A stretch of DNA of 64,000 bases from Tropicibacter sp. R16_0 (lineage in GTDB: Bacteria; Pseudomonadota; Alphaproteobacteria; Rhodobacterales; Rhodobacteraceae). The translations under genes and the position numbers were made by a program. Below the pieces are notes generated by a model, which saw only the letters and a list, made by a program, of their open reading frames with translations, was not told the origin of the DNA and searched no databases. Location: NCBI RefSeq assembly GCF_017743935.1, contig NZ_JAGHRE010000003.1, positions 434,001 through 498,000 on the forward strand, given 5' to 3'. The first letter of the stretch is position 1. Each line of letters begins with the position of its first letter. Below, one piece after another: positions 35,210 to 47,617 of the stretch.

Positions 35210-36247
35210 TCAGGCGACGCGCCAATGTACGAGGAAGCCCGGATCAAAGACGGTCACAGGGCCATCGCCGGTTTCGATCTTGTCGGGGAAAGTGACAACG
35301 TCGCCTTTGGTCAGCGTAATGGTCTCTTCGTTCACTGGCATGCGATAAAAGCCAGGGCCGTTGAGCGAGGCGAAAGCTTCGAGCTTGTCCAATGCACCTG
35401 CCTTTTCGAACACCTCTGCCAAAAGTGACATGGTGTTGGTGGCGGTGAAACAGCCCGCGCAGCCGCAGGACATTTCCTTGTTGTCGTCAGTGTGCGGGGC
35501 CGAGTCGGTGCCCAGGAAGAAGCGCGCGTCGCCAGAGGTGGCGGCCTCTACTAGGGCCAGGCGGTGCTCTTCGCGTTTGGCGACGGGCAGGCAGTAGTAA
35601 TGCGGCTTGATCCCGCCAACCAGGATGTGGTTGCGGTTGATGATCAGGTGGTGCGTGGTGATGGTTGCGCCCAGGTCCGTGTCATTTGCTTTGACATAGT
35701 CGACGCCATTGGCCGTGGTGATGTGTTCCATCACGACGCGCAGTCCCGGGGTGGATTTACGCATCGGGTCCAGCACCCGGTCGATGAACACGGCCTCGCG
35801 GTCGAAGATGTCGATGTCGTGGTCGGTGACCTCGCCATGACAGCACAGCGGAAGGCCGATCTCGGCCATCTTTTCCAGCACCGGACGGACCTTGTTGAAA
35901 TCGCGCACACCGGACGAGGAGTTGGTTGTTGCACCTGCCGGGTACAGCTTGACCGCCTTGACCAGACCACTGGCGTGGGCCGCGGCCACATCTTCGGGGT
36001 CGGTGTCCTCGGTCAGATAGAGCGTCATCAAGGGCTCGAAGGTCATGCCTTCGGGCAGGGCCGCCAGAATGCGATCGCGATAGGCGGCTGCATCGGCGCC
36101 ACGAACCACGGGCGGCACCAGGTTCGGCATGATGATGGCGCGGGCAAAATGGCGGGCGGTTTCGGGCAGGACGGCCTGCAGCATTGCGCCATCGCGCAGG
36201 TGCAGATGCCAGTCGTCGGGGCGGCGGATCGTGAGGCTCTGGGTCAT
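35210..36247 (-). CDS. pyrC: Dihydroorotase
   Basis: 345 aa, class II length. Zinc ligands in [10 protein letters not shown] (His-x-His), the carboxylated Lys in [13 protein letters not shown], the His residues at LCCHGEV and VMEHITT, and the catalytic Asp in [10 protein letters not shown]. It cyclises carbamoyl-aspartate in pyrimidine synthesis. The start [16 protein letters not shown] agrees with the family. Confidence 0.96.
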
Positions 36248-36276
36248 GTGCCCCGGCTAGCACAGCGGCTCCGAAC

Positions 36277-36312
36277 GGAAAACCCCCAAGCCGGGTGGCC
36301 TGGGGGTTTTCC
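36277..36312 (-). terminator. Rho-independent terminator of the glycan cassette
   Basis: GGAAAACCCCCA (36277-36288) and TGGGGGTTTTCC (36301-36312) are perfectly complementary over 12 bp, enclosing a smaller GCC/GGC pairing. It lies 18 nt after the stop of the 320-aa gene and closes the minus-strand block 36330-43264 before pyrC. Confidence 0.92.
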
Positions 36313-36329
36313 TTGGATTTCGGTTTGGC

Positions 36330-37292
36330 TCAGCCTGCGGCGGGCGGCGGCGGGGCAAAGGCGCCTTGTTGGGCCATCTGCTCCAGTTCTTCCAGTCGCA
36401 TCCGGAACCGGCGGGCCGGCATGCGCGAGGTCACATTCCGGCACAGCAGTGTGTTGAGGTAGAACCGCTCGGCCGAATCCAGCTGCCCCACAAGGCCGCG
36501 CAGATACCGCGGATAGGACCGGCGGGCGCGATAGAGACGGAAGAAACTGCGCGCGCTCAGCTTGCCGGACCCTGCCATCGCGAGCAGACGATAGAGCAGG
36601 TTCATGTCAAGCAGGCGCGACTGCAGCTCACCCCCCATGTTGCGCATGCGCAGGCGGGTGACGTTCGGGCGTTCAAACAGGGTTGCATGCATGGCATCCA
36701 ACGTCTGCAGCGGGTCGTACAGAATGTAGGCATGATCGGCCGCATCCAGCATGTCGGGCGCATAGCCGTAGCGATCGGTGAAGGAGGTGCGGCGCATCTC
36801 GACAAAGCGATCGTCCCATTCGGTCATGTTGGGGTCCAGTGTGGCCTGGGGCTGCACAGCAACCACGGTCGCGCCCGGAGAGGCAACCGAAAAGGCGGCT
36901 GCCGCATAGCCGCATGGGCCCGCGCCATAGAACACCACGCGGTCGAAATCTTCGAAAAAGCCGTCGTCGATCAGGCGGTCGAAGAAACCATAGACCTTGG
37001 GATCGCGAAACCAGGTGTCGCCATCGGAAATGATGCACAGATGCGACCAGTTTTGCGTCTTCACTAGGTCAAACCCAAACGGCTGTTGGGTTTCCGACAT
37101 GGCGCGAATGCCTTGCATCGTCTCAAACGTGACAACCAGAGTGGCGTCACGGTCGATGAATGTCGCGAAATGGTTTTCGCCCAATTCCTGCGACATGCCT
37201 TCGGCCTCGGCCTGCTCTAGCAGCTTGCGCTTCCATACGGCGCGCCGATAGCCCGCAATTGAGGTATCGATACTGGTTTTTGCGTCCTGCAT
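36330..37292 (-). CDS. Unassigned 320-aa cytosolic protein of the glycan cassette
   Basis: The central part (about residues 80-180) has an alpha/beta pattern with WSHLCIISDGDTWFRDP, DRVVFYGAGPCGYAAAAFSVA and ATVVAVQPQATLDP. GAGPCGYAA sits where alpha/beta-hydrolases have GxSxG, so it may be a hydrolase-fold relative with Cys or Pro in place of Ser. Homologues in roseobacters sometimes bear the name phosphoadenosine phosphosulfate reductase; I see no such motif. It is the last gene of the cassette and shares its terminator. Function not inferable. Confidence 0.75.
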   Translation of the reverse strand: MQDAKTSIDTSIAGYRRAVWKRKLLEQAEAEGMSQELGENHFATFIDRDATLVVTFETMQGIRAMSETQQPFGFDLVKTQNWSHLCIISDGDTWFRDPKVYGFFDRLIDDGFFEDFDRVVFYGAGPCGYAAAAFSVASPGATVVAVQPQATLDPNMTEWDDRFVEMRRTSFTDRYGYAPDMLDAADHAYILYDPLQTLDAMHATLFERPNVTRLRMRNMGGELQSRLLDMNLLYRLLAMAGSGKLSARSFFRLYRARRSYPRYLRGLVGQLDSAERFYLNTLLCRNVTSRMPARRFRMRLEELEQMAQQGAFAPPPPAAG

Positions 37293-37378
37293 TTACTCAT
37301 CCTCGAAACTCCAGCCGCTTTTCGGGCCAGTTGTTTCCAATAGGTCTAGGCTGAGAATGAGGCCAAAATGGGAAAAAC

Positions 37379-38458
37379 TCAGGTCGGTTTCGGGTCGTTT
37401 CCGCTTTGCTGGGATTTGGCCCGCAGGCGACCCAGGTTGGCGAAGCCCGTCAGTGTCCGCGCCGTTGCAGCGCTGATCGGGCGCGAGGGCGGTGTCATCA
37501 TCAACCGCGCCAGCAGCGCCCGGTAGGGTTCCTGCTCCATCAGTTTCTGGAAACGGTTTCGCCGCCAGTCTACCGCGCGTTTGTGCAGCTTTGCGAGTGT
37601 CGGATCCCCGTGCAGTTCGTCCCGCAGTTGGGTGCTTTTTTCATCGTAGCGGTGGATCGTCTCATCGGTGTCGGTGTTGAAATTCCGTTCTACCCAGTAG
37701 TCGACGTCAAGCATGTGCTCGGAATGCACCGCACGGCCGCGATCGGCCTTGAGCACGTAGCTTTCCATCGCGCCCAGGGGATAGTGATTGAGTTGCGCCA
37801 GCTGATAGTTGTCGCGCCCGTAGTTGGAAAACAGGCGTTTGAGCTTGAACTGTTCGTCCAGCTCGCGCCCGTTGGCGTCGAACCAGCGGGCCGCATCCAA
37901 GCGTTCCGGGTCAGGATTACGGGGGCGGTGGACCCCCAGTTTTGAATAGATGCCATCGTTGCGGTAGAGCGTTTTGAACATGGAGGCGCGCCAAGGCCAG
38001 AACATCACCGCAGGGGCGCACCGCGTGAAGCTTTGCGTCACAGGAGCATCTTCGTACCGGATGGTTTCGGCATTGCCGAACAGCCGCCAGGTCAGAGTGA
38101 TGGCCGTGGCGTCGGGCAGGGCGGCGATCAGGTCGGTGACGTGTCCCTGGCCGGTGTGAATGTTGACGAACTCGTCCACATCCAGCGGCAAAATCCAATC
38201 GGCCTGTTTAACCAGTTTGTGCTTTCCAGCCGCCTTGAGTGCTGTGAATTGGATGCCTCGTTTGTCATATGGCCCATCGTTGGGAAGGTGTGTCAGATGC
38301 CCAAGCTCTTGCAAACGGTCCAGAATGCGGTCGGTGCCGTCCTGGCAGTTGTTGGAGAACACCAGGAAATCGGTGAACCCCACAGCGCGATGGTGGGCGA
38401 GCCACTCCAGCAGAAAAGCACCTTCGTTTCGGACGGTCAGGACGGCAAGCACACGCAT
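37379..38458 (-). CDS. GT2/GT92-like glycosyltransferase
   Basis: 359 aa from the ATG 5 nt after the FkbM stop. N-terminal nucleotide-sugar fold with VLTVRNEGAFLLEWLAHHR, FSNNCQDGTDRILDRLQ and the metal-binding DVD at residues 93-95 (LPLDVDEF). The region FGNAETIRYED and SKLGVHRPR matches the Glyco_tranf_2_4 group. No membrane segments, so cytosolic. Donor and acceptor unknown. Related domains are at 39199-41583 and 42233-43264. Confidence 0.85.
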   Translation of the reverse strand: MRVLAVLTVRNEGAFLLEWLAHHRAVGFTDFLVFSNNCQDGTDRILDRLQELGHLTHLPNDGPYDKRGIQFTALKAAGKHKLVKQADWILPLDVDEFVNIHTGQGHVTDLIAALPDATAITLTWRLFGNAETIRYEDAPVTQSFTRCAPAVMFWPWRASMFKTLYRNDGIYSKLGVHRPRNPDPERLDAARWFDANGRELDEQFKLKRLFSNYGRDNYQLAQLNHYPLGAMESYVLKADRGRAVHSEHMLDVDYWVERNFNTDTDETIHRYDEKSTQLRDELHGDPTLAKLHKRAVDWRRNRFQKLMEQEPYRALLARLMMTPPSRPISAATARTLTGFANLGRLRAKSQQSGNDPKPT

Positions 38459-38463
38459 AAGGG

Positions 38464-39195
38464 TTACCAATTGCTGCGGAACACCGCGACTTTGCCAGAC
38501 GAAAATTTGGGGAAGAAGACCAAGCCCTGTTCATGCAACAACTGAAAGATGTCCTTGACCCCCTTGCTGCCAATCCATTGTGGGTGCAATTCGATCAGCA
38601 GGGCGCGCAGCCCGCTGAGGTTCAATTTTGGCAGCAGATCGACCTCGGCCCCTTCGATGTCGCAGACCAGGACCGTTGGTTTGATCTCGGCGAAGACGGC
38701 ATTGGCATCGCGCATCGGAACCTGTTTTGGCGTGGTATCGGTGCCGCCGTCCGTGGGGTCAAGGGAGGACGACAGGATGTCCTCGCGGCAATAGAATGTG
38801 GCCATGCCGTCCCTGTCACCCAGAACGGCATGATGCAGATGGGCCTTCTTTGCGCGGTTCAGCCGGTGGACCTCGCGGATATAGTCGATCAAGCCGGGAT
38901 TGGCCTCGAAGGAGTGTACCACCTGGGCGCGGGTCTTGGTCGAAATCAAGGTCGACATGAAACCGATGCCGCCCCCAAGTTCCAGCACCACATCCCCTTT
39001 GCGGATCAACTTGAGCGCCGCTTCTGCCTCGCCATGTTCATAGTGACCCCTGCGCAGGGATCGACGCACCTGCGCCGGCAGGGGGATAATGTCGCCCGGA
39101 AACCTCATGTCCCGGCACCAGTGCATCCGCTTGCGTTTGGGTTGGTCGTCTGACGGGGTTTGATCTTGGGGTTGCGAGTCTTGCGTCTCGACCAT
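38464..39195 (-). CDS. FkbM-family SAM-dependent methyltransferase
   Basis: 243 aa from ATG 39195, directly after the stop of the fusion gene. SAM motif VVLELGGGIGFMSTL (about residues 68-82), FEANPGLIDYI, and the family's VLVCDIEGAEVDLLP acidic motif. FkbM enzymes O-methylate sugars or polyketides; here they would methylate a glycan built by the neighbouring glycosyltransferases. The Lys/Arg-rich N-terminus lacks a signal. Confidence 0.88.
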   Translation of the reverse strand: MVETQDSQPQDQTPSDDQPKRKRMHWCRDMRFPGDIIPLPAQVRRSLRRGHYEHGEAEAALKLIRKGDVVLELGGGIGFMSTLISTKTRAQVVHSFEANPGLIDYIREVHRLNRAKKAHLHHAVLGDRDGMATFYCREDILSSSLDPTDGGTDTTPKQVPMRDANAVFAEIKPTVLVCDIEGAEVDLLPKLNLSGLRALLIELHPQWIGSKGVKDIFQLLHEQGLVFFPKFSSGKVAVFRSNW

Positions 39196-39198
39196 CAC

Positions 39199-41583
39199 TC
39201 AGCTCTCCAGGTCCAAGGCAAGCGCATAGGCCACGCGCTCGGTTTCCGTCAGTTTGACCTTCAGGGCCTGCTGATACAACTCTTCGAATTCCGGCATGCC
39301 GTGCAGCTCGACGGCTTTGGCGCGGTGCCATTCCAACCCTTTGAGGTGCCAGTTGCGCAAGGTCTCGTCCTGCATCAGCCGGTCGTATTCGCTGCGCAAG
39401 CGGGGGAGGTTCCGCTTGATGGTGACATCACGGTAGTCCGACCAATCCATACGGATCCAATAGTTCAGCCCGATGGACCGATCCACATGCAGGGCGCGAC
39501 CCCTTTGCCGTTTGATCAGATAGCTTTCGGCACTTCGCAGGGCATAGTGGTTGAGCTGGATAAGGTCGTAGCCAATTGATTTCTTGGAGTTTCTCCAGCC
39601 ATTGTCCACCGCTTCACCGGTCATGTCGCGGCCCGAGCCATTGACCCAGCGAACATCGCCGCGCTTGTCTTCGACCAGCTTGTTGGGGCGGTGACAGCTG
39701 ATTTTTTCATAGGCGCCGATGTTCTTGAACATCGTCTTGAAGCCCCAGACCGTATGTGGCTTGGGGCAGAATTTCGGAGCGCAGGTGTCAAACTGATCGA
39801 TCACGAACTCATCGGCCAGATGGGTTACGTTGTTGTGACCAAACAGCCGCCAGGTCATCGCCACATTGGTGGCATCTGGCACCGCATCAAAGAAATCCTG
39901 CAATGTGCCGTTGCCGGTGCGCACGTTCACGAATTCATCCACGTCAATGTGCAAAATCCAGTCGGCGTTCTTAATCACCGGCTCTTTCAGGGCCTGGTTG
40001 AGCGCGTATTGCTGCGGCGAGTTGCCCTTCCAGTCATCATTATTGCGGTGCTGCAGAACGCCCATTTCCTGCAAACGGTCCAGAATCTCGGACGTGCCAT
40101 CCGAGCAGTCATTCGTGTAGATCAGGAAATTGTCGACCCCCATGGCCCGGTGATAGGCGACCCATTCCACGATATAGGGGGCTTCGTTTTTCATGCAGCC
40201 CACGATGACATTGCCGCTGCGCCCCTTGGGCAGATCGCGCGGAGGCACCCGCGTGTACGCGGCGGCAAGCTGTTCTTCATCCACCGCGCCCAGTCGGTTG
40301 TGGGGGGCAAAGGAAGAGGTTTTGAGCTTCTCGAAGTTCTGTACCGCTTGCGGCGGCATCAGGGCCCGGGCGGTCTCGGTCAAGCCGTCGACCTTAGGTG
40401 CGTCATCGGACGCCGGGGGCGGGGTGGGAGCGGTTTCAACCGCGCCACGGTCCGCCAACTCTTCGAGCCGCTGCGCAAACTTGTCTTTTGTCGCCTTTTC
40501 GATGCGAAACAGGAACGACAACAGATATTGCGACGCTCGAAATCCGCGTTCGGGGTCTGCTTCGACCCAGGGATCACACGGCTGAGCGGCCAGAAAGGTG
40601 TCATCATCCAGCTCTGGGTGGCGCAGCGCCAAGGTGCTGTTGGCCTTTTGAAACCGCTCGGAAACCTGCGACAAGCTACCGGGGTTGGGGGCTGGGCCGG
40701 GCACGGCGATTTCTGACACGAAACTGCGCCACAACTGACGAGGGACGTGACGCTCACCCTGCGCCAAAAGCTTGAGTAAGATGGCATTGAATTTTTGCGC
40801 GCGTGTCATCCATGCGGCTGACATGGGGGCGTTTTCAGGCAGGCCCTGTGCCCGGCCGATCGTTTCCGAGATGTCGAATGCAGCGCGAATTTCGTCCGTG
40901 ATCGTGTCGGGCGCAAAAAGATCGTCGGCATAGGCCCGCAGGTTCAAGGCGCCAGCACCAAAGACGGCCTCCCATTGCTCTTGTAAAGACAGGGTGTCCA
41001 GCCAGAAGGCCGGGCCTTGGGTCTCTTCGAACACGCCTGCCATCGGGTCGATCCGGGGCATTGCCGCGACGCAAGCCGACCACCAATCGGGGCTGTCCAG
41101 CAGTCCCAGCTCCAGGTCCAACGGGGCGGCGCGGCCCTCGGCCAGTTGCGCCGCGTAGTGGTTCAACAGCAACCGGGCCGGATCGTCCACATAAGTCAGC
41201 AGGCGAATGTCATCAGACAGGGGGCGCAAAATGTCATGGATACGCCGCATCTCGGAGGGGCGGTGAATGGATGTCGCCAGTTGCGGCACCGACAGGATCA
41301 TCACATCCGGGCGCGCCTGCGCGATCTCGCCTTGCAAGCCCTGCATCATGTCATCGCGCAGCTGCGCCTGTTTTTTGGGGCTGGCAAACCCGCGATTGAA
41401 CCGCAGTGGGTCGACATGATCCGGATCAGTCATCGCCATGAAGAACCGGGTGTGGCTTTTGTTGCCGGGGCTGCGGGGGTACAAAATGCCCTTTGATCGC
41501 AGCTGCTCGCGTTTGGATGCCAAAACCTCTTGCAGCGCCTGAGCGCCAGCGACTTCGGGACCGATATGAAGATAGAGTCGCAT
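39199..41583 (-). CDS. Fusion: sulfotransferase-like domain plus GT2/GT92-like glycosyltransferase
   Basis: 794 aa from the ATG overlapping the sulfotransferase stop (TGATG). Residues 1 to ~300 resemble a sulfotransferase: RLYLHIGPEVAGAQALQEVL occupies the place of HIGxxKTGTTxLQxxL, but the Lys-Thr-Gly-Thr-Thr that binds PAPS is gone, so this half is probably inactive or binds glycan. A Pro/Ala linker at ~383-400 leads to a glycosyltransferase (about 456-760) with VGCMKNEAPYIVEWVAYHR, TNDCSDGTSEILDRLQ and DVD at 547-549. Cytosolic. Not a standard domain pairing. Confidence 0.82.
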   Translation of the reverse strand: MRLYLHIGPEVAGAQALQEVLASKREQLRSKGILYPRSPGNKSHTRFFMAMTDPDHVDPLRFNRGFASPKKQAQLRDDMMQGLQGEIAQARPDVMILSVPQLATSIHRPSEMRRIHDILRPLSDDIRLLTYVDDPARLLLNHYAAQLAEGRAAPLDLELGLLDSPDWWSACVAAMPRIDPMAGVFEETQGPAFWLDTLSLQEQWEAVFGAGALNLRAYADDLFAPDTITDEIRAAFDISETIGRAQGLPENAPMSAAWMTRAQKFNAILLKLLAQGERHVPRQLWRSFVSEIAVPGPAPNPGSLSQVSERFQKANSTLALRHPELDDDTFLAAQPCDPWVEADPERGFRASQYLLSFLFRIEKATKDKFAQRLEELADRGAVETAPTPPPASDDAPKVDGLTETARALMPPQAVQNFEKLKTSSFAPHNRLGAVDEEQLAAAYTRVPPRDLPKGRSGNVIVGCMKNEAPYIVEWVAYHRAMGVDNFLIYTNDCSDGTSEILDRLQEMGVLQHRNNDDWKGNSPQQYALNQALKEPVIKNADWILHIDVDEFVNVRTGNGTLQDFFDAVPDATNVAMTWRLFGHNNVTHLADEFVIDQFDTCAPKFCPKPHTVWGFKTMFKNIGAYEKISCHRPNKLVEDKRGDVRWVNGSGRDMTGEAVDNGWRNSKKSIGYDLIQLNHYALRSAESYLIKRQRGRALHVDRSIGLNYWIRMDWSDYRDVTIKRNLPRLRSEYDRLMQDETLRNWHLKGLEWHRAKAVELHGMPEFEELYQQALKVKLTETERVAYALALDLES

Positions 41584-42236
41584 CAGGGTTTCTTTCCTGC
41601 CGCCAATTTCTCGGCGATGCGTTCCGCCTGGTCGTTGGCCTTGCCCCACCATTTTATCTCGATCCCCAGAAAATCACCGATCTGCTGCGGGGCTTCGGGG
41701 TCGGTGATGTCGTATTCCATGAACATGTCGGTGCCTTCGAAAACCCGGCGGCAGAACCTTTGATGTCCGTCGATCCAGCGGATCAACTCGTCCACCTCGT
41801 ACCCATAGCCTTCGGGCATGCCAGGCACCTGGTACATCGGCAGGCGGCGCTTACCCAGGTTCGACCACCGCAACATGGAATCCACCAGCTTTTCGGGCGG
41901 GCGGCTGGAATACAGGAATTTGGCACCGGGGTGCTTGTCGATGATGGTGCTGAGCAGCCCCCAATCGGTCTGCGGCCATTCGTTGAAGCCGCGCGCGATC
42001 ATGCTGATTTCAGTGAAGGCGTCAAATTCATGCATGAAATGAAGCGGATCGCCATGTTTGAAATAGCCACGGTACATCAAGCGTCCGACAAAATCGTTGC
42101 GTAGCTCCTTGATCTCGGTCTGGTGGTCGTGGATCTTCCAATCCGCCACTTTGAGGCCCGAGGCATCCAGCGCTTTGCCCAGGGTTGTGGTGCCCGACTT
42201 CGGCAGGCCAAGGTTGATCACGCGCAAGCGGCTCAT
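41583..42236 (-). CDS. Sulfotransferase family protein
   Basis: 217 aa. Intact 5'-phosphosulfate loop LPKSGTTTLGKAL at residues 10-22. A 3'-phosphate region at FLYSSRPPEKLVDSMLRWSN (Arg/Ser) and a C-terminal DPEAPQQIGDFLGI helix are typical of PAPS-dependent sulfotransferases of the NodH/HS-type group. It would add sulfate to a sugar hydroxyl. Overlaps both neighbours (ATGA with the upstream glycosyltransferase, TGATG with the fusion gene), so all three are translated together. Confidence 0.88.
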   Translation of the reverse strand: MSRLRVINLGLPKSGTTTLGKALDASGLKVADWKIHDHQTEIKELRNDFVGRLMYRGYFKHGDPLHFMHEFDAFTEISMIARGFNEWPQTDWGLLSTIIDKHPGAKFLYSSRPPEKLVDSMLRWSNLGKRRLPMYQVPGMPEGYGYEVDELIRWIDGHQRFCRRVFEGTDMFMEYDITDPEAPQQIGDFLGIEIKWWGKANDQAERIAEKLAAGKKP

Positions 42237-43264
42237 GCAGTCAGTCCCAGTCGTTTCAACAATTTCTCTTCGGCGGGCGGCAGGGTCGAGGCTGCACGCA
42301 GTTGATCGCGCATGGCCTGATATTCTGACATCTGCAGCAGCTCGTCCCGCTTGGCACGGTGAAGCGCCACCGCCTCGTCATGCAACGCGCCGATCTCGGG
42401 GTCGGATTTCAGTGCGGCCAGTTCACGCTCGAGATCTGGCAGATAGCGTTGGATGCTCAAGTCCTGCCAGGCCGGGTCGTTGCGGTCGCGCCAATAACTG
42501 TCGTCGAAATTGCGGTGTTCGCGGTTGACGTCGCCCCGGTCGTTCTTGACCAGATAGCTGTCGAGGCTGCGCAGCGCATAGTGGTTCAGTGTCGCCAGAT
42601 CCCGCGCGCCGCGGGCCGGAAATTTGCGGATGCGGCGCGGGTTTGCTGCCACCTTGAACCGGTGCTGCACATCTCGGCCCGAGCCGTCGGTCCAGCTGGG
42701 TCGCTTTTTCGGTGGCAGTTTCTTGCGAAAGAACGGGCGATGCGCGCCATAGTACTGAAGGGGAAAATCGCTGCGGATCAGGGTCTTGACCTCTGCCGCG
42801 CTTTCGCCCCCCCACAGATCGGGATTGTGCGAGCGGGTGAACTGCTGGATCACCGGCTTGTCTTCGAAATCCTCGATCCCGTCATTGGCAAAGAACTGAA
42901 ACGACAGGCTGATAGCTTGCGGGTTGCCACAGGCGTCAATCAGCGCCGGGATGGTGTGATCGCCTGCATGGATGTTCAAAAACTCGTCTACATCCGCGAT
43001 CCAGACCCAATCGGCGTTGACCACGATATCCTCATGCGCGGCGGCCTTGAGCGCCTCCATCTGATAGTTGCGCCCCTCGGCCGGGTTGGGCAGATGCCGC
43101 ACGATGCCGCGGTTCTGCAACACGTCCAACAGGCGGTCAGTCGCATCCGTGCAGTCGTTGGAATAAAACAGAAAATCGGTCACCCCGATCAGGCGGTTGA
43201 AGGCGATCCATTCCAGCAGGAAGGGCCCTTCGTTCTTGACGCAGGTCACAGCCGTGATTTTCAT
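42233..43264 (-). CDS. GT2/GT92-like glycosyltransferase
   Basis: 343 aa from the ATG at 43264, chosen by match to the paralogue starts (MKITAVTCVKNEG). DVD at residues 91-93 in WIADVDEFLNIHAG; SNDCTDATDRLLDVLQ; LNHYALRSLDSYLVKNDRG in the C-terminal half, shared with the fusion protein. First gene of the cassette; its promoter must lie in the 249-nt divergent gap before coxD. Confidence 0.86.
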   Translation of the reverse strand: MKITAVTCVKNEGPFLLEWIAFNRLIGVTDFLFYSNDCTDATDRLLDVLQNRGIVRHLPNPAEGRNYQMEALKAAAHEDIVVNADWVWIADVDEFLNIHAGDHTIPALIDACGNPQAISLSFQFFANDGIEDFEDKPVIQQFTRSHNPDLWGGESAAEVKTLIRSDFPLQYYGAHRPFFRKKLPPKKRPSWTDGSGRDVQHRFKVAANPRRIRKFPARGARDLATLNHYALRSLDSYLVKNDRGDVNREHRNFDDSYWRDRNDPAWQDLSIQRYLPDLERELAALKSDPEIGALHDEAVALHRAKRDELLQMSEYQAMRDQLRAASTLPPAEEKLLKRLGLTA

Positions 43265-43484
43265 GCCCGGCTCTCCTCCGGCCCATATGCCGGTCCACTC
43301 TTCACCACGTCTGCCCCGATCCATACCTGTTGGGCGCCATTCTTTGGGCGCCGATTGTTTCCCAATTCATGACATTTACGCGCGAATCCGTCAACATTTC
43401 GCAAACTCTTGGACAGCGGGTCACGGCGATCTAGTTTGCTTTCGAATGCGACTGCAAGAGCGGTTGACGAGCGGCGCACGCTCG

Positions 43485-43498
43485 TGCCCATCTGGGCA
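43485..43498. other. Short palindrome upstream of coxD
   Basis: TGCCCA-TC-TGGGCA lies 16-29 nt before the coxD start, overlapping the region before the GGGGAGAGAGC ribosome site. It could form a leader hairpin or an operator; the rest of the 249-nt gap to the glycosyltransferase gene shows nothing clear. Confidence 0.35.
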
Positions 43499-43513
43499 TC
43501 AAGGGGAGAGAGC

Positions 43514-44422
43514 ATGACCATTCCAAATTCGATCGACGCGGTCCAAGAGCAGTTGACCGCCCAAGGCTATGTTTGCGGCAGGGCGCTGGCGACCGTGGTG
43601 TTCCTGTCGCTCAAGCTGGGGCGGCCCTTGTTTCTGGAGGGTGAGGCAGGCGTCGGCAAGACCGAGATCGCCAAGGCACTCAGCGCGGCCCTGGGGCGCC
43701 GGTTGATCCGGTTGCAGTGTTACGAGGGTCTGGATGCCTCCTCGGCGGTTTACGAATGGAACTTTCCCGCACAAATGGTTGCGATCCGCACTGCCGAGGC
43801 ATCGGGCGGGGCCGACCGCAAGGCGCTGCAGACCGAGCTGTTCTCGGACGAGTTTCTGGTCGAGCGTCCGCTGCTCGAGGCGATGCGCCCGGATGAAAAC
43901 GGTGCGCCGGTGTTGCTGATCGATGAGCTTGACCGTACCGATGAACCGTTTGAGGCCTTCCTGCTCGAAGCGCTTAGCGATTTTCAGGTCACCATCCCCG
44001 AGCTTGGCACCATCAAGGCGCCCGAGCCGCCCATCGTGATCCTGACCTCGAACCGCACGCGTGAGGTGCACGATGCCCTCAAACGCCGCTGCCTGTATCA
44101 TTGGGTCGATTACCCCGATTTCGACCGCGAGGTGGAAATCCTGCACGCCCGCGCGCCCGAGGCGGCCGAAAACCTCAGCCGCGAGATTGTCGCTTTTGTC
44201 CAGCAACTGCGGACCGAGGATCTGTTCAAGAAACCCGGCGTGGCCGAAACCATCGACTGGGCCAAATGTCTGCTGGCACTGGATGTGATCAACCTCAGCC
44301 CCGAGGTCATCGCAGACACGCTTGGCGCGATCCTGAAATACCAGGACGACATTCAGAAAATGCAAGGCTCCGAGGCCAAGCGCATCCTGGATCAAGCCCA
44401 CGCCAGCCTCGCCCCGGCCTGA
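43514..44422 (+). CDS. coxD: MoxR-type AAA+ ATPase of the cox cluster
   Basis: 302 aa; ATG after GGGGAGAGAGC. Walker A LEGEAGVGKTEIAKA, Walker B PVLLIDELDRTDEPFEAF, sensor ILTSNRTREVHDALKRRC with Arg finger. In Oligotropha-type CO dehydrogenase systems CoxD works with CoxE to mature the [CuSMoO2] site. Here the enzyme is form II and the role is inferred. coxE follows after a 69-nt spacer. Confidence 0.9.
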   Translation: MTIPNSIDAVQEQLTAQGYVCGRALATVVFLSLKLGRPLFLEGEAGVGKTEIAKALSAALGRRLIRLQCYEGLDASSAVYEWNFPAQMVAIRTAEASGGADRKALQTELFSDEFLVERPLLEAMRPDENGAPVLLIDELDRTDEPFEAFLLEALSDFQVTIPELGTIKAPEPPIVILTSNRTREVHDALKRRCLYHWVDYPDFDREVEILHARAPEAAENLSREIVAFVQQLRTEDLFKKPGVAETIDWAKCLLALDVINLSPEVIADTLGAILKYQDDIQKMQGSEAKRILDQAHASLAPA

Positions 44423-46471: not shown

Positions 46472-47023
46472 ATGCAACTGAACTGGAAGGTTGGCGGGCT
46501 GCTGCTGGGGCTGGTGTTCTTTGCGGCCGTGTGGCTGGTCAAGCCGATTGGCGTGTCGACGCAATTTGTGATCCTGGACGGCATCGTTGCGGATGCGGTG
46601 AACCCGGGGTTGGTGACGCAGACCGACGACGGCTTTACCTCGACCAATGCCTATCTGGCAAAATCGGGCGGCAAATACGCCAAAGCGGTGTCGAACCCGC
46701 TGAACTACAGCTTTGTCTTCGTCATCGCGATGATGATTGGTGGGCTGCTGTCTGCCTTGGCGCGCGGCGGCATCCCGGCGGGAGATCGTCAGGTGCCTGC
46801 GCTGTGGCGGGCCAACTTTGGCGACTGCCGGATCAAGCGCTACACGGCGGCCTTTGTTGGCGGGTTCATCGTGCTCTATGGCGCGCGTCTGGCGGGGGGG
46901 TGCACGTCGGGGCACATGATGTCGGGCATGATGCAGACGGCGGTGTCCGGCTACATATTTGCCGCTGGCGCCTTTGCTGCGGCTGTTCCCGTGTCCCTGA
47001 TGCTCTTCAAAAAGGAGGCCTGA
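46472..47023 (+). CDS. pmpA: YeeE/YedE family membrane protein PmpA
   Basis: 183 aa; ATG after GGAAAGGAAATCCC. Four or more membrane segments and the family's Cys motif LAGGCTSGHMMSG, which is the likely path for thiosulfate or other reduced sulfur species. The paired half-transporters of this family take up sulfur compounds and are often SqrR/BigR-regulated. pmpB starts 4 nt later. Confidence 0.9.
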   Translation: MQLNWKVGGLLLGLVFFAAVWLVKPIGVSTQFVILDGIVADAVNPGLVTQTDDGFTSTNAYLAKSGGKYAKAVSNPLNYSFVFVIAMMIGGLLSALARGGIPAGDRQVPALWRANFGDCRIKRYTAAFVGGFIVLYGARLAGGCTSGHMMSGMMQTAVSGYIFAAGAFAAAVPVSLMLFKKEA

Positions 47024-47026
47024 GCC

Positions 47027-47617
47027 ATGACAACCATTCTACTTGCCCTTGTGATTGGCGCAGCCTTTGGCGCCGTGCTTGATCGCGTTGGTGCGTCGAA
47101 CCCGTCCTTTATCGGGGCCATGTTGAACCTGACTAATCTGAACCTGGCCAAATCGATCCTGCTGGCCATCGGGGTCGGTTCGGTTCTGATGTTCGGCGGC
47201 CAGATGCTGGGCCTAGTTGATGTGGGCCACATGTCGGTCAAAACCGCCTATGCGGGCGTGTTTCTGGGCGGTCTGCTTCTTGGCGCCGGTTGGGCTCTGT
47301 CCGGCTTTTGCCCAGGCACCGGCGTGGTTGCCGCCGCTTCAGGTCGCAAGGACGCCTTGTTCTTCATCGCGGGCGGTTTGTTGGGTGCTGCGGCGTATAT
47401 GGTGACCTATCCGGCGTGGAAATCCTCGGGCCTGCTTGATGCGGTTGCGGGCGGCAAAGTCACGCTTGGTGCGGTGCCCGGCGCCAAATACGAGGGCCTG
47501 ACCGCTTTGCCGGGGGATATCCTGGGGCTGGTTCTGGGCCTTGGTTTTGTTGCATTGGCCTTTGCCTTGCCCGAACGACTGACCGGCGCCCCGGCGCAGG
47601 TACAACCGGCCGAGTAA
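47027..47617 (+). CDS. pmpB: YeeE/YedE family membrane protein PmpB
   Basis: 196 aa with five to six membrane segments. Conserved Cys motif LSGFCPGTGVVAAASGR (about residues 92-108). It forms the second half of the sulfur transporter with PmpA. Downstream at 47791 is a strong terminator that separates this pair from the next cox gene. Confidence 0.9.
   Translation: MTTILLALVIGAAFGAVLDRVGASNPSFIGAMLNLTNLNLAKSILLAIGVGSVLMFGGQMLGLVDVGHMSVKTAYAGVFLGGLLLGAGWALSGFCPGTGVVAAASGRKDALFFIAGGLLGAAAYMVTYPAWKSSGLLDAVAGGKVTLGAVPGAKYEGLTALPGDILGLVLGLGFVALAFALPERLTGAPAQVQPAE

Follow-up and report, generated by a model that had tools for sequence, protein, structure and literature searches.

In streptococci, the accessory Sec system couples intracellular glycosyltransferases to an alpha/beta-hydrolase-type partner (GtfA/B, Asp1-3/Gap1-3). 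A similar combination appears in the locus described here, a block of six minus-strand genes (A to F, from upstream to downstream) at positions 36330-43264 of a 64,000-nucleotide stretch of the Tropicibacter sp. R16_0 genome (Rhodobacteraceae; contig NZ_JAGHRE010000003.1, positions 434,001 to 498,000), hereafter the window. The block encodes GT2_4 glycosyltransferases in A, C and E, a sulfotransferase in B, an FkbM-family methyltransferase in D, and in F a predicted relative of the alpha/beta-hydrolases. The glycosyltransferases of accessory Sec belong to other families than those of the block, and that system has secretion and substrate genes, whereas none was found among the six genes and the eight flanking genes scanned. 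According to passages of PMC5578698, the Ser-Asp-His triad of Asp2 is uniformly conserved, in contrast to F, which lacks both Ser and His, and export of the Asp2 substrate does not require the catalytic activity of Asp2. CsaC, the capsule O-acetyltransferase of Neisseria meningitidis serogroup A, shares its fold with F, but F is without the Ser and His found in its triad-bearing relatives, while the use of a histidine by CsaC is taken from the title of an H228A entry. Residues 1-335 of C are predicted to fold like heparan sulfate 3-OST and NDST1 (Z 13.1-14.3); in C, however, both motifs for the cofactor 3'-phosphoadenosine 5'-phosphosulfate (PAPS) are replaced, a GT2_4 domain is fused, and identity is 12-17%. 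Synechan-type capsule and exopolysaccharide clusters, as described in passages of PMC8205485, likewise combine glycosyltransferases with a sulfotransferase; unlike them, the block has no export or polymerase gene among its six. No published account of this cassette or its function was found in the literature searched, which lay mostly outside subscription journals.

With moderate confidence, we read the block as a fixed-site cytosolic module for a short glycan that is sulfated or methylated in some strains, in which a retired enzyme (F) and a retired domain (in C) would serve as binding parts. Gene neighbourhoods indicate that it is a resident locus of the Roseobacter group, lying between moxR-coxE and pyrC-pyrE-dnaB. 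The F query matches 55 of 121 genomes, its own included, and 54 of these belong to the family of the window; the C query matches 65 of the 121, with the three matched genomes beyond the family giving weaker matches only. The nearest locus among the matches listed is that of Tropicibacter sp. Alg240-R139, where F is 94% identical. Gene content was compared at the best 80 of at least 498 F relatives, a set in which close relatives are over-represented and contig or flank ends cut some loci. The flanks recur throughout (pyrC at 78 loci, dnaB at 76, moxR at 70), as do the cassette genes to differing degrees (E at 72, C at 55, A at 52, B at 46 and D at 30), and the order A-(B)-C-(D)-E-F is invariant. 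The full set ABCDEF is found at 26 loci and ABCEF at 19, followed by EF (17), F alone (8), ACEF (5), CDEF and ACDEF (2 each) and BCEF (1); moxR is in view at 16 of the 17 EF loci and 4 of the 8 with F alone. A second sample took 40 loci from relatives, 20 chosen for having C and the other 20 more divergent. A and C share the order of the window at 20 of these 40 loci, the 20 being those picked for C, and one divergent locus (L086) has the order E-C-D-F. Since the two samples share some genomes (L092 is L054, for example), F members were reduced at 97% identity.

The grouping of the six genes is not a matter of chance, since dozens of genomes repeat their order. A host tree was built from dnaB, pyrC and pyrE with 68 rows (the window and 67 loci from the 80-locus set) in a quick search without bootstrap, omitting 13 loci without all three housekeeping genes and moxR. 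On it, the minimum number of changes is 4 for E, 8 for C, 10 for B and 17 for D. Together with the presence counts, this suggests that E and F form the steady part of the locus, that A and C are often gained or lost, and that B and D are the most changeable. The sequence-only reading of the block, made from its letters and open reading frames, had proposed a cassette for a sulfated, methylated surface glycan whose homologues should be found together. The homologues do co-occur, both at the 80 loci and, for B and C, in 73 genomes treated below, and a set of co-inherited glycan-building genes is borne out; with at least 10 changes for B and 17 for D, sulfation and methylation would fit some strains only.

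Gene F (36330..37292, minus strand) encodes a protein of 320 aa that matches no family above cut-off in Pfam or NCBIfam. Its AlphaFold model, with a predicted local distance difference test score (pLDDT) of 91.5, predicts an alpha/beta-hydrolase fold. By VIA, 986 of 1000 chains align with it at Z of 8 or more, and the rows displayed are, by title, esterases, acyltransferases and their kin. The best row is 6oyc_B of the Gap123 (glycosylation-associated protein) complex (Z 13.6, root-mean-square deviation 3.6, 207 aligned), followed by MPT51 (Z 13.5) and CsaC (6yuo_A; Z 13.0, root-mean-square deviation 4.3, 201 residues, 9% identity). With Z values tied, none of CsaC, Ag85/MPT51 and Gap123 is claimed as the parent of F. 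A profile of F (alignment A2, 58 of the 80 loci plus the window) gave no Asp2/Gap2 or other match at E <= 5 against PDB sequences.

At the triad positions, the F protein of the window has Gly125, Asp193 and Gly221. Residue 125 (36918..36920, minus strand), the nucleophile position, is Ser in 28 triad-bearing relatives, and residue 221 (36630..36632, minus strand) is His in the same 28. The family was assembled as 147 members from 140 loci and the window, and cut to 140 at 97% identity. Ser125 and His221 are both present in the 28 and both absent from the other 112, the window included, with no mixed member; Asp193 is kept in all 140. On a tree of F (120 rows, both columns removed), triad loss is a single change, and the split has a support of 100 in the Shimodaira-Hasegawa-like approximate likelihood ratio test (SH-aLRT), in a quick search that had no bootstrap and drew a long-branch warning for distant rows. 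The ratio of nonsynonymous to synonymous substitution rates (dN/dS) of F against five relatives is 0.023-0.089, in the range of the transferases; this strong purifying selection argues that loss of the triad was not followed by decay. The triad-bearing branch has the fold shared by glycan O-acyltransferases and many esterases.

Two divergent loci join F to a glycosyltransferase in one reading frame. One protein at L180:8682-10721 combines a GT2_4 domain with an F relative that retains the triad, and the genes downstream of it bear a weak resemblance to methyltransferases. At L181:2538-7766, a frame of 1742 aa includes an F domain of the triad-bearing type along with GT2_4 and a weaker Gb3-synthase-type match, and it belongs to a cluster that has additional GT2_4 genes. 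These joint frames support F as a partner of GT2_4 enzymes. Genes next to divergent F loci are for the most part unremarkable (urease, acyl-CoA dehydrogenase, meaB), the exceptions being a single GT61 gene and some weak matches to methyltransferases. The genome of the window itself has a distant F relative on another contig, beside meaB, with Ser-Asp-His intact (L189:9291-10178, contig C11), and a genome of the same genus has one like it (L190).

The second degenerate part lies in gene C (39199..41583, minus strand; 794 aa), in which a sulfotransferase-like domain without PAPS motifs precedes a fused GT2_4 domain (PF13704, 88.9 bits against a cut-off of 27.5). An AlphaFold model of residues 1-400, made from 50 sequences, has a pLDDT of 94.0. 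Its first two Foldseek matches are sulfotransferases, and VIA places 13 sulfotransferase entries at Z 15.3-13.1 before a drop to 9.0; all but 3rnl are heparan-sulfate 3-O- or N-sulfotransferases. Roughly the first 330 residues of C are thus predicted to adopt a heparan-sulfate-type sulfotransferase fold from which the PAPS motifs are missing. We place the motif positions from the sequence motifs of NDST and 3-OST. At the expected site of the 5'-phosphosulfate loop, residues 8-16 (GPEVAGAQA; 41536..41562, minus strand), there is no Lys at position 11. None of the 50 aligned rows has Lys there, most having His, Gln or Val, and one has Lys at 12. For the 3' motif, Arg is found at 131-134 in none of the 50 and Ser at 139-142 in one. 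The N-terminal half is the more divergent, with a mean pairwise identity of 0.47 against 0.79 in the glycosyltransferase half, and its dN/dS of 0.07-0.35 indicates purifying selection, though faster change than in that half.

Sequence searches with this domain return little: Pfam gave scattered weak matches for the 50 N-domains, the best at E 0.006 and none of them a sulfotransferase, and a search of PDB sequences gave nothing convincing. C-like proteins outside the locus carry another N-domain. At six divergent loci (L073-L076, L172 and L177), a triad-bearing F is accompanied by a C-like protein whose N-domain resembles, by eye, a degenerate glycosyltransferase domain and not a sulfotransferase.

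Gene B (41583..42236, minus strand; 217 aa) is a Sulfotransfer_4 protein (PF17784, 31.3 bits against a cut-off of 22.8) that retains the PAPS motifs. Residues K13, G15, T16, R112 and S120 are invariant in all 37 aligned orthologues; we take the first three to form the 5' PAPS loop and the last two the 3' PAPS motif. Hence B looks like an active sulfotransferase with its putative PAPS-binding residues intact. Its profile reached sulfotransferases among PDB sequences only at E 0.24-0.99, which is not convincing. In 73 genomes of the family, B and C occur together in 21, B only in 2, C only in 2 and neither in 48, an association with a Fisher p of about 5e-14 if kinship is ignored. The table was compiled by hand and scores C only when its N-domain matched, so that one genome (G059) counts as B without C. 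In three genomes (G008, G044 and G047), B is missing from the locus but a copy lies at a separate site, where the approximately 10 kb read contain none of the other cassette genes. Passages of PMC3230580 describe one sulfotransferase as unique to two seaweed-disease strains, but these passages allow no tie to B. The survey of sulfotransferases in mats of PMC9723792 is silent on this locus in the passages available.

All six open reading frames are present as the sequence-only reading had them, the upstream four with overlapping or abutting junctions. A and B overlap by 4 nt (ATGA) and B and C by 1 nt (TGATG), C and D abut, the ATG of E stands 5 nt past the end of D, and F begins 86 nt past E. 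The family assignments of that reading also hold: its three DVD-type glycosyltransferases fall in GT2_4, its intact sulfotransferase is B, and its protein of unknown function is F, which lies outside Pfam and NCBIfam families. Beyond C, the GT2_4 genes are A (42233..43264, minus strand; 343 aa; PF13704, 69 bits) and E (37379..38458, minus strand; 359 aa; PF13704, 86.6 bits), both against a cut-off of 27.5; the score of E was computed on a frame taken from 38455, its ATG being at 38458. The DVD motif, the metal-binding motif of GT2_4 glycosyltransferases, stands as ADVDEF in A, IDVDEF in C and LDVDEF in E. For C, a fused glycosyltransferase had been recognised rightly, while its description is amended to a start at 41583, a length of 794 aa and a fusion partner with a sulfotransferase-like fold that is without cofactor motifs. 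Gene D (38464..39198, minus strand; 244 aa) matches PF05050 and TIGR01444 (60.2 bits, cut-off 37.7). The genome has 11 GT2_4 matches in all, C1:164340-165831 and C31:425519-425785 among them, and a tandem pair scores highest. The products had also been described as lacking membrane helices, in agreement with a highest 19-residue hydropathy mean of 1.38 across the six proteins, at which no membrane helix is expected in any of them.

Between F and pyrC lies a terminator-like hairpin (36268..36325, minus strand; -35.5 kcal/mol, z = -5.67), as well folded as which none of 200 shuffles was. The strong terminator claimed for the block is upheld as a hairpin and as a putative terminator, although a simple consensus scan did not list it among minus-strand terminators. 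Folds of 55 nt below -18 kcal/mol occur in the F-pyrC gap of 52 of 78 loci of the 80-locus set, a count made with no shuffle control. A promoter consensus scan of the block gave 4 matches against a mean of 3.2 in shuffles, and an Rfam scan of 36000-43700 gave no RNA family. Among PHROGs, D alone has a match (methyltransferases), so there is no hint of phage origin. By Pfam, the flanks of the window encode DnaB, a phosphoribosyltransferase, an amidohydrolase, an AAA ATPase and a CoxE-type VWA protein; the names pyrE, pyrC and moxR are our own reading of these matches. Further along, at 46472-47617, is a tandem pair of small Sulf_transp (YeeE/YedE-type) genes, whose relatives lie close to the cassette at 16 and 10 of the 80 loci.

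In the module that we favour, a short oligosaccharide bound to its acceptor would be extended in the cytosol by A, C and E in turn, and B would sulfate and D would O-methylate this oligosaccharide in strains having them. F would serve as a partner without catalysis of its own, binding the glycan or holding the transferases, for which the bifunctionality of Asp2 offers a precedent, and the N-domain of C, which would no longer bind PAPS, may still hold the acceptor sugar for its fused transferase. The preferred acceptor, which is a guess, would be an envelope glycan linked to lipid, for example the core of lipooligosaccharide, on the grounds that this core is completed in the cytosol and requires no flippase of its own. 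A more far-reaching proposal, which we advance only tentatively and think somewhat doubtful, is a glycan assembly complex run on two retired enzyme folds: F, as a hydrolase or O-acyltransferase relative that has lost Ser and His, and the heparan-type sulfotransferase domain of C, which has lost its PAPS site and is fused to a glycosyltransferase. Alongside an active sulfotransferase, both would have been retained in many genera of one bacterial family to act as scaffolds for the glycan. The absence of membrane helices by hydropathy would equally suit cytosolic protein glycosylation, where the transferases act in turn on a protein (an adhesin or flagellin) not yet exported, as happens in the accessory Sec system of Gram-positive bacteria. 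To this may be added that 6oyc_B heads the VIA rows for F, and that passages of PMC5578698 and PMC7948813 describe Asp2 as bifunctional, O-acetylating GlcNAc on GspB. We nevertheless consider protein glycosylation unlikely, given that the six genes and eight flanking genes scanned include no gene for secretion or substrate, and that 6oyc_B is within Z 1 of MPT51 and CsaC. A capsule or exopolysaccharide repeat, built or tailored on a lipid carrier and exported by a Wzx/Wzy pair encoded elsewhere, is less probable still. Sulfated polysaccharides are already on record in bacteria, according to passages of the literature, and in this genome contig C35 has one clear Wzx-like match and C11 another, at cut-off, with Wzy_C adjoining it; but these lie on other contigs than that of the window (C31), no such match is found in the eight flanking genes scanned, and the six genes include none for sugar-nucleotide synthesis, initiation, flipping or polymerization.

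F itself might have stayed active with a changed nucleophile, acting on the glycan as an acyltransferase or esterase. The candidate is Cys127, two residues past the old Ser, retained in 100 of the 112 Ser-less members, with Asp193 in 140 of 140; as position 127 is Ala or Gly in the other 12, and His is gone along with Ser in all 112, this seems very unlikely to us. Most improbable is a loose set of sugar genes gathered at an insertion-prone site with no common product. B, D and C are indeed gained and lost repeatedly (at least 10, 17 and 8 changes) and L086 is rearranged, but the order is constant throughout the 80 loci and B tracks C even when unlinked. Several observations weigh against the module as we describe it. 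F occurs without C at the 17 E-F and eight F-only loci, and, although F is present in 21 of 23 sampled genomes with C, one genome (G072) lacks it, with E directly beside pyrC, while the locus of G059 consists of A-B-C-D, in which the N-domain of C is very divergent, and lacks both E and F; thus F is not strictly needed. (In G044, the contig stops at E, and no F was found anywhere in the genome.) The top Z values of F are mutually tied and near those of ordinary esterases, and a shared fold proves no function, while the retention of Cys127 makes other chemistry conceivable. The searches turned up no relative of the C N-domain whose PAPS site is intact, and it is therefore by its fold that this domain is called a former sulfotransferase. 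Finally, an adenosine 5'-phosphosulfate (APS) kinase match in the genome makes PAPS synthesis plausible, but 98 of 121 genomes have APS kinase against 23 with B; being non-discriminating, it was rejected as a marker of sulfation. The capsule genes of R. capsulatus, required as gene-transfer-agent receptor, were also considered as a functional anchor and set aside, as passages of PMC10218006 and PMC4158056 give no link to the locus.

What is new here is the arrangement at a fixed site and the pair of degenerate domains, the parts themselves belonging to known families or folds. Beyond the sequence-only reading, the site proves to be shared group-wide, F is a predicted hydrolase relative without nucleophile and His, and C includes a domain without PAPS motifs. 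The locus offers a clear-cut natural example of enzyme folds that stay conserved once catalysis is lost, for which the triad-bearing relatives serve as controls. Roseobacters are abundant marine bacteria, and many members of the group keep this locus at one chromosomal site, which makes it a defined unit for the study of their envelope glycans.

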